Source of the DNA: a bacterium
GTDB lineage: Bacteria; Patescibacteriota; Minisyncoccia; Minisyncoccales; JAUYFS01
NCBI GenBank assembly: GCA_030689665.1
Contig: JAUYFS010000007.1
Location: 1-35,118 of the forward strand
DNA: 35,118 nt
Direction of reading: 5' to 3'
In this document: piece by piece, positions 29,466 to 33,010 of the stretch
Numbering within the stretch: position 1 is the first letter of the stretch
Layout: each line of letters begins with the position of its first letter
The notes under the pieces: model-generated
The model's input: only the letters and a program-made list of their open reading frames with translations
Told to the model about the DNA's origin: nothing
The model's database searches: none
Position numbers and translations under genes: made by a program

Positions 29466-29492
29466 TTAGCAGTCAATAGTCGAGATTGCTAA
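29466..29492 (+). promoter_or_regulatory. CIRCE-like HrcA operator
   Basis: TTAGCAGTC-N9-GATTGCTAA versus CIRCE consensus TTAGCACTC-N9-GAGTGCTAA. Confidence 0.8.
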
Positions 29493-31674: not shown

Positions 31675-31703
31675 TTGACACAGCGATTTTATTTTGCTAA
31701 CAT
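31675..31703 (+). promoter_or_regulatory. Promoter of predicted sRNA1
   Basis: TTGACA (31675-31680), 17-nt spacer, TGC-TAACAT (-10 at 31698-31703). Confidence 0.75.
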
Positions 31704-31709
31704 CTAATC

Positions 31710-31764
31710 AGTGAGTGCTGTGATTCCAAGACCGGCCTTGCTCGAGTAAGGTCGGTCTTTATTT
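31710..31764 (+). ncRNA. Predicted small RNA 1 ending in a rho-independent terminator
   Basis: Predicted TSS ~31710; 12-bp hairpin aagaccggcctt-gctcgagt-aaggtcggtctt then tattttc; no ORF. Confidence 0.55.
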
Positions 31765-31791
31765 TCATGAATCTCACAGTTGTATTGCGAA

Positions 31792-31829
31792 AAAACCGTT
31801 CCGACGAATATCGGGGCGGTTTTATTTTT
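31792..31829 (+). terminator. Second rho-independent terminator between groEL and murB
   Basis: aaaaccg-tt-ccga-cgaata-tcgg-gg-cggtttt followed by atttttgg. Confidence 0.7.
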
Positions 31830-31945
31830 GGCTTCCTTGACCCCGCCACAATCATTGTATTTTAGAAGGCGGGGCGAGAAGAGGCGTTAAACGAAGCAAA
31901 TAAAAACAAACGTTGATACCTCATATTATAGATATCCTGGTCTCC

Positions 31946-31975
31946 TTGACACGATTTAACCTTGTTTGTTAAAAT
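31946..31975 (+). promoter_or_regulatory. Promoter of predicted sRNA2
   Basis: TTGACA (31946-31951), 18-nt spacer, TGT-TAAAAT (-10 at 31970-31975). Confidence 0.72.
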
Positions 31976-31982
31976 AAATTTT

Positions 31983-32038
31983 GACCGAGGGCAGCACTCA
32001 CTATTTTATATTCGGAGTCTACTCCCTCGGTCTTTTTT
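31983..32038 (+). ncRNA. Predicted small RNA 2 ending in a rho-independent terminator
   Basis: gaccgaggg (31983-31991) ... ccctcggtc (32024-32032) then tttttt; loop carries cagcactcact. Confidence 0.55.
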
Positions 32039-32074
32039 CTTGTCTAAAAACCGCCAATAAACTAAACTAAAACA

Positions 32075-33010
32075 ATGGAAATAAAAGAGAATATATCTCT
32101 GAAGGGTTTTACTTACTTTAAAATCGGCGGCAATGCCAGATATTTTTGCGCGGCAAAAACAATAAAAGATTTGTCAACGGCATTGGATTTTGCGCGAAAA
32201 AACAACATGGAAATTTTTGTTTTGGGAAATGGCTCAAAAATTTTGGTTTCAGACAATGGTTTTGAAGGATTAGTGATAAAAAACGAAATGAAATTTATAG
32301 AAATGACGGAAAAGGGCAATAATCCTCAATTGGAAGTTGCCAGCGGGGTTATGCTGACGGAATTAGTTGATTTTTGCCTTAAAAATTCTTTGTCAGGAAT
32401 AGAAAAATTATTTGGAATTCCCGCCACAATCGGCGGAATGATTTACAAAAATGCCGGCGCCCATGGATATTCAATTGGAAGCATTACGGAAAAAATAAGA
32501 ATTTTGAATTTAAAGAAAAACAAAATTGAAGAAATCATAAAAGATGAAAAAACTTTTGGCTATAGAACCAGTATTTTTCAAAAAAAACAGGAAATTATTT
32601 TAAGCGCTTTTTTAAGGTTTAAAAAAGAGGAAAATTCAAAAATAAAAGAAACAATTTCCGAAGTGACGAAAAAAAGAATGGAAAGCCAGCCGATAAATTA
32701 CCCGTCAGTCGGTTCAATTTTCAAGAATATACCGGCAAAGAATTTCAGCAAGGAAATTCTGGAAAAAGAGGATTTTCCGATTGTAAATTGTATGGTCTCG
32801 GCAGGGCTTTTGATAGAAAAAATGGGATTAAAAGGAATAAAGCAAGGCGATGCCCAGATTTCGGAAAAACACGCCGGATTTATAATCAATTTGGGCAATG
32901 CCAAAGCAAATGATGTAAGATTTTTGATTGATTTAATAAAAGAAAAGGCAAGGGAAAAATTCCACATTGAAATGAAAGAAGAAGTTGAGTATCTGGGCAA
33001 GTTTTTTTAA
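32075..33010 (+). CDS. murB: UDP-N-acetylenolpyruvoylglucosamine reductase
   Basis: [62 protein letters not shown]. Confidence 0.95.

Follow-up and report, generated by a model that had tools for sequence, protein, structure and literature searches.

Do the two compact units in the gap between groEL and murB encode RNAs that recognize each other, and if so, what would such a pair control? The question arises in a 35,118-nt stretch of DNA (hereafter, the window) from the Patescibacteria, ultra-small and mostly host-dependent bacteria whose regulatory RNA is, to our knowledge, almost unexplored. An earlier note had described the two units and their promoters and proposed either an interaction between the RNAs or a shared binding site; the sequence and a promoter/terminator scan agree with that description of the units.

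Both units lie on the + strand. The promoter of the first, sRNA1 (31675–31703), consists of TTGACA (31675–31680), a 17-nt spacer and a TGC-extended TAACAT (31698–31703), and would yield an RNA of about 55 nt (31710–31764; fold, promoter/terminator scan and covariance model R2, see below), with the 5′ end placed by its distance from the –10 box and the 3′ end by the terminator. Its predicted 5′ end is formed by block A (AGTGAGTGCTG; 31710–31720), followed by a strong intrinsic terminator stem-loop (31728–31759; terminator scan and fold) and a T-rich tail to about 31764. Thus, sRNA1 has its own promoter and Rho-independent terminator, and the terminator stem covaries among relatives. The second unit, sRNA2, is preceded by TTGACA (31946–31951), an 18-nt spacer and a TG-extended TAAAAT (31970–31975; whole promoter 31946–31975) and is predicted to be a structured RNA of ~56 nt or a candidate murB leader element (31983–32038; fold and covariance model R1). 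In the fold, the 5′ strand of its outer stem P1 (GACCGAGGG; 31983–31991) pairs with the 3′ strand (CCCTCGGTC; 32024–32032), which runs into T6 (32033–32038). The loop holds block A′ (CAGCACTCACT; 31992–32002) and a predicted inner helix, P2, between ACTC (31996–31999) and GAGT (32015–32018), the latter forming in relatives the 3′ part of a further block, B′. sRNA2 has its own promoter, and a terminator is present in only part of the loci. The promoters match the consensus at 10/12 (sRNA1) and 11/12 (sRNA2) bases, both with an extended –10 box, and the two hairpins are much more stable than shuffled sequences (z = –4.5 and –5.3). The neighboring murB gene follows at 32075–33010 (+ strand). A scan of the groEL–murB gap for tRNA and tmRNA returned none. 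The gap also contains a third strong terminator-like hairpin between the two units (AAAACCGTTCCGACGAATATCGGGGCGGTTTT-ATTTTT; 31792–31823), without an obvious unit of its own, and a further inverted repeat (CCCCGCC...GGCGGGG; 31842–31876).

Block A is the exact reverse complement of block A′ over 11 nt, as the earlier note had it, and the match can be extended by one flanking G-U pair. The 10-mer AGCACTCACT has exact occurrences at these two sites only in the whole 455-kb assembly. When both transcripts were dinucleotide-shuffled, complementarity of at least 11 nt arose in 7/20,000 trials; the match had been called unlikely by chance, and the shuffles bear this out, although we would grade a lone match of this length as only moderately improbable. 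A genome-wide search by duplex energy did not single out sRNA2 (–22.9 kcal/mol at its site versus –23.5 kcal/mol at the best other site). Gapped duplex energies were uninformative as to whether sRNA1 has the other mRNA targets expected of a sponged sRNA, and no other exact 10-mer site was found. Evidence from the window alone is suggestive of RNA pairing rather than proof of it.

To place the two units among known RNAs, the window was compared with 4227 Rfam 15 families, none of which matched the pair at the gathering threshold; six relatives gave sub-threshold matches only (E up to 1), and no published description of the pair was found in open PMC papers. It is thus a large RNA pair without a name in Rfam or in the literature searched, although base-pairing RNAs are known as a kind. 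Could the pair then represent a known housekeeping RNA, for instance SRP RNA or 6S RNA, that has split in two or diverged strongly? Neither of these was found at Rfam thresholds in the genome itself (L306–L345 plus the window), and the small-SRP family rose above its cut-off in 0/246 genomes of the order, an order-wide result that rests on this one family. However, the pair bears no likeness to SRP domain IV or the 6S bubble, the sRNA1 hairpin varies and is missing from some copies, and a simple regular expression for the Ffh/FtsY GTPase motif returned no candidate in the assembly, whose tmRNA and RNase P are intact. We therefore consider a housekeeping origin very improbable; the SRP pathway itself may be missing or very divergent. 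The assembly also contains tRNAs and a group I intron (L316, 9487–9735; 84 bits against a gathering threshold of 50).

The pair is conserved well beyond this genome. When 60 relatives were searched at the DNA level, three weak matches came up, all from the same order but outside the window's family; in each of them both units lie upstream of murB and groEL is absent. The search was then widened to 247 genomes from the order, of which 38 matched a pattern describing the sRNA2 loop (the reversed control pattern gave no match in the table); R1, the covariance model of sRNA2, matched 126, nearly always once, and R2, the model of sRNA1, matched 140, usually in one copy. Both RNAs were found together in 113 genomes and neither in 94 (Fisher p = 2e-28 for co-occurrence). 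Because its automatically derived structure missed stem P1, R1 works mostly at the level of sequence, and its count is too low. In the window, R1 matches 31978–32040 (E = 1.5e-13) and R2 31695–31767 (E = 6.7e-9), approximate values from shortened calibrations that are not independent evidence because the window copies helped to build both models. The pattern occurs in several named records, among them Candidatus Nealsonbacteria, Wildermuthbacteria, Brennerbacteria and Parcubacteria DG_74, and further convincing R1 copies in a phylum-wide sample were confined to the same class. R1 matches outside the class (e.g., L246 and L250) lack an adjoining murB and are apparently weak chance matches; hits of the pattern to Actinomadura and further non-Patescibacteria were likewise put down to chance, the pattern being degenerate and the collection large. 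The phage records searched gave no match to the pair. One genome (L017; contig G105:C84) carries two sRNA2 copies about 1.7 kb apart with one sRNA1 match, and in several families (L002, L003, L098) the gene ahead of the pair encodes an O-antigen-ligase-like membrane protein.

Most relatives possess two complementary blocks, A:A′ and B:B′, and the window pair is a reduced copy that retains A and A′ and has lost B and most of B′. The sRNA1 layout reads TTGACA, a 17-nt spacer, TGCTAATAT, N6, block A (AGTGAGTG), a variable hairpin that is missing in some relatives, block B (CTCCATTCTAAGTC), GGC and the terminator, the promoter architecture TTGACA-17-TGCTAATAT thus being kept in relatives too. That of sRNA2 comprises the P1 5′ strand (about 10 bp), block A′ (AGCACTCACT), AAA, block B′ (GACTTAGAATTGGAGT), AACTC and the P1 3′ strand. 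With the order 5′-A-B-3′ in sRNA1 and 5′-A′-B′-3′ in sRNA2, the blocks are circularly permuted, and we infer that both intermolecular helices together would make a pseudoknot-like, double-kissing arrangement. Each RNA can also fold back on itself: in sRNA1, A can pair with B, and in sRNA2, A′ and B′ can form helix P2. P1 is free to vary in sequence (57 distinct 9-mers in 81 loci); at one pair of P2 (ACUC:GAGU), a compensatory change from T-A to C-G is seen in 14 sequences from seven families. GGG:CCC and GAGG:CCUC variants of the sRNA1 A–B helix go with the same change in sRNA2, and the GGG/CCC segment versions change together in G095, in G090 and G100, in G022 and G148, and in G052. Such joint change of the internal A–B and A′–B′ pairings suggests a strand exchange between the two hairpins.

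If the two RNAs pair, their blocks should change together, and the earlier note had named covariation in relatives as one check. For this comparison, we assembled 81 loci from 28 families in which sRNA1 was chosen by promoter and terminator with complementarity ignored. Cognate partners form stronger duplexes than non-cognate ones, both for A (–17.7 versus –14.3 kcal/mol) and for B (–17.6 versus –13.7 kcal/mol), and when partners were permuted between families, with one locus per family, none of 2000 trials did as well as the cognate pairs for either block. Over eight A:A′ positions, both sides had changed with Watson–Crick pairing kept in 39 cells, and mismatches doubled on permutation (24.2 versus 11.1 in cognate pairs; 0/2000). 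Matched A:A′ pairs include CACCCACT/AGTGGGTG, GGTCCTCACT/AGTGAGGACC and CCCTCACAA/TTGTGAGGG, those of B:B′ include CTTAGGATTGGG/CCCAATCCTAAG, GTCTTACA/TGTAAGAC and GAATTGGAGTTTT/AAAACTCCAATTC, and CACCCAAAC/GTTGGGTG is a further matched cognate variant. Among the 27 genomes with sRNA1 and no R1 match, diverged sRNA2 copies with matching changes were seen in most of the 20 loci examined, in a scan that sought complementary hairpins and was hence biased towards finding them. Copies missed by R1 were found near their own sRNA1 in G007 (TATAGGTGAGT with ACTCACCTATA), G029 (ATGTGGGTGCT with AGCACCCACAT, plus CCCCGATTCTG with CAGAATCGGGG), G231, G236 and G227. Complementarity is thus upheld by compensatory change. 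These genomes gave a fair test of what the earlier note would have counted against the idea, relatives in which one segment changes without compensation in the other, and in most of the loci the matching changes just described were seen instead. The pairing is not perfect everywhere, and one-sided changes and mismatches do exist (8 G-U versus 30 mismatches among one-sided A:A′ changes, without clear enrichment of wobble pairs and in part reflecting misalignment in the rows of families f9 and f10).

Do the RNAs pair in cis, as parts of one transcript, or in trans? In several loci, sRNA1 and sRNA2 lie on opposite strands and keep their complementarity, and in some genomes sRNA1 lies some 50 kb from its own sRNA2, or on a separate contig, and still matches it. 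In G246, with the genes on different contigs, both TTAATGAGTA/TACTCATTAA and ACAAAGTC/GACTTTGT match, and compared with G245 of the same family, A and A′ differ correspondingly. The different-contig cases rest on draft assemblies, and we regard these genes as apparently unlinked. Opposite orientations and separate contigs argue that the pairing acts in trans and rule out pairing confined to a read-through transcript. A cis-encoded antisense RNA of the CopA type was rejected as well, the genes being separate, non-overlapping, often on the same strand and sometimes on different contigs. Taken together, comparative sequence data indicate that sRNA1 and sRNA2 almost certainly bind each other, and the interaction proposed in the earlier note gains support from cognate complementarity in two blocks that change together.

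The same observations bear on two explanations that dispense with RNA pairing. A chance match, or an inverted duplication whose two copies gene conversion keeps similar, might account for a lone 11-nt match given the shuffling result; it is already contradicted by covariation across relatives. The pair is conserved in over 100 genomes, its blocks are circularly permuted, and their changes run in step even where the loci are apparently unlinked, all of which speaks against it; matching at distant loci makes gene conversion between neighboring copies unlikely, so that we regard this explanation as hardly credible. Alternatively, the 11-mers could be DNA operator half-sites of one regulator (CIRCE-like, bound by HrcA) that covary with the specificity of that regulator. 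The string AGCACTC/GAGTGCT, shared by both blocks, does resemble CIRCE halves, and a search of the window for TTAGCACTC-N9-GAGTGCTAA with up to three mismatches found, at 29466–29492 ahead of groES, a CIRCE-like HrcA operator that departs from the consensus by 2 mismatches, so that groESL is probably under heat-shock control of the standard type. This was, however, the only such site in the window: neither 11-mer has a second half-site at the 9-nt CIRCE spacing, A and A′, each read along its own transcript, stay opposite in sense regardless of gene orientation or linkage, and a second, different pair of blocks and the internal helices covary too. The behavior of the relatives fits RNA pairing and disfavors a shared protein-binding site, leaving the operator explanation very improbable.

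What might the paired RNAs control? sRNA2 adjoins murB in almost every locus: 102 of 111 murB-linked copies are co-directional, in the position of a 5′ leader, and nine are divergent. In leader copies, P1 ends a median of 18 nt before the murB ATG, with a widely varying distance. The nine inverted loci span several families, and most have a clear terminator of their own. Elsewhere, sRNA2 lies between other genes away from murB (G037), upstream of an HPF-like gene (G052) or in a fetched locus without murB (G347). Inverted and murB-free copies argue that murB cannot be the only context of sRNA2, which can apparently work as a free RNA and is usually a murB leader—a refinement of its earlier description as a free sRNA. 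As for groEL, it does flank the pair in the window, yet this is incidental, since other loci lack it; a link to groEL was rejected, as it is murB and not groEL that accompanies the pair in relatives. In two distant genomes (L098, L253), the place of murB near sRNA2 is taken by a SpeD-like gene and an HPF-like gene of ribosome hibernation.

The reading that we favor, with moderate confidence, is that sRNA1 and sRNA2 are two dedicated partner RNAs that act in trans and whose likeliest output is the control of MurB synthesis. sRNA1 would be a short RNA made from a strong promoter, with block A at its extreme 5′ end. Before contact, each RNA would fold on its own blocks, A–B in sRNA1 and A′–B′ (P2) in sRNA2. 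Binding may start as a kissing contact of block A—in most relatives also of the downstream block B—with A′ and B′ in the sRNA2 hairpin loop and proceed by strand exchange to two intermolecular helices, with the outer stem P1 staying intact. This would remodel or stabilize the murB leader and might thereby set MurB synthesis. The pair thus probably regulates cell-wall synthesis.

The main rival to murB control leaves the pairing unchanged and makes murB a mere neighbor that is also driven by the sRNA2 promoter, the pair being a free-standing regulatory or ribonucleoprotein complex (a sponge with its sRNA, or a protein-bound two-piece RNA). Terminated, divergent or murB-free sRNA2 copies in several families plus one other order fit such a complex, as do strong conserved promoters, the usual single copy of each RNA and the lack of any other exact 10-mer site in the genome, as expected of a dedicated partner. 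Against it, sRNA1 moves, even to another contig, while sRNA2 nearly always stays at murB, suggesting that place matters, and in most loci the few nucleotides between P1 and the murB ATG leave no space for another promoter. On balance, we hold a murB-independent complex to be possible, though less probable than control of MurB synthesis. Somewhat less probable again is a two-piece functional RNA, ancestral in Paceibacteria, whose reciprocal strand exchange (an intermolecular pseudoknot) would build one conserved complex with a role beyond murB, murB often being expressed behind one of the pieces.

Two separate RNAs whose bases co-evolve in some 30 families, also where the genes are apparently unlinked, are a rare natural record of a selected RNA–RNA interaction, which makes the pair a useful test case for interaction predictors. 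Should MurB be its output, these tiny bacteria, most of them dependent on a host, would govern cell-wall synthesis by an RNA switch. In vitro, two short synthetic RNAs would be enough to put the prediction to the test.

Among known systems, sponges and 5′-UTR-derived RNAs (e.g., of E. coli) resemble the present pair in that an sRNA base-pairs with an RNA that is either free or derived from a leader. The sRNAs that sponges titrate act on further mRNAs; here, no other exact target of block A was found in the genome. CopA–CopT, RNAI–RNAII and OxyS–fhlA are antisense or kissing-loop RNA pairs and, like ours, involve structured RNAs, loop recognition at two sites and possible rearrangement into intermolecular helices. 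Unlike the CopA–CopT type, the present partners are separate genes, sometimes far apart, rather than overlapping antisense transcripts; their conservation on the chromosome extends across an order, and their blocks are circularly permuted. With regard to output, PmaR of Agrobacterium is a trans-acting sRNA that raises murB mRNA and is predicted to pair in the murB 5′ UTR; it has several targets and occurs in other bacteria (PMC6234868). The portion of that account used here (PMC6234868) describes no covarying murB leader element; the present pair looks dedicated. Compared in this way, by description, PmaR shares cell-wall synthesis as an output with the proposed pair and is the closest functional precedent that we found (PMC6234868).
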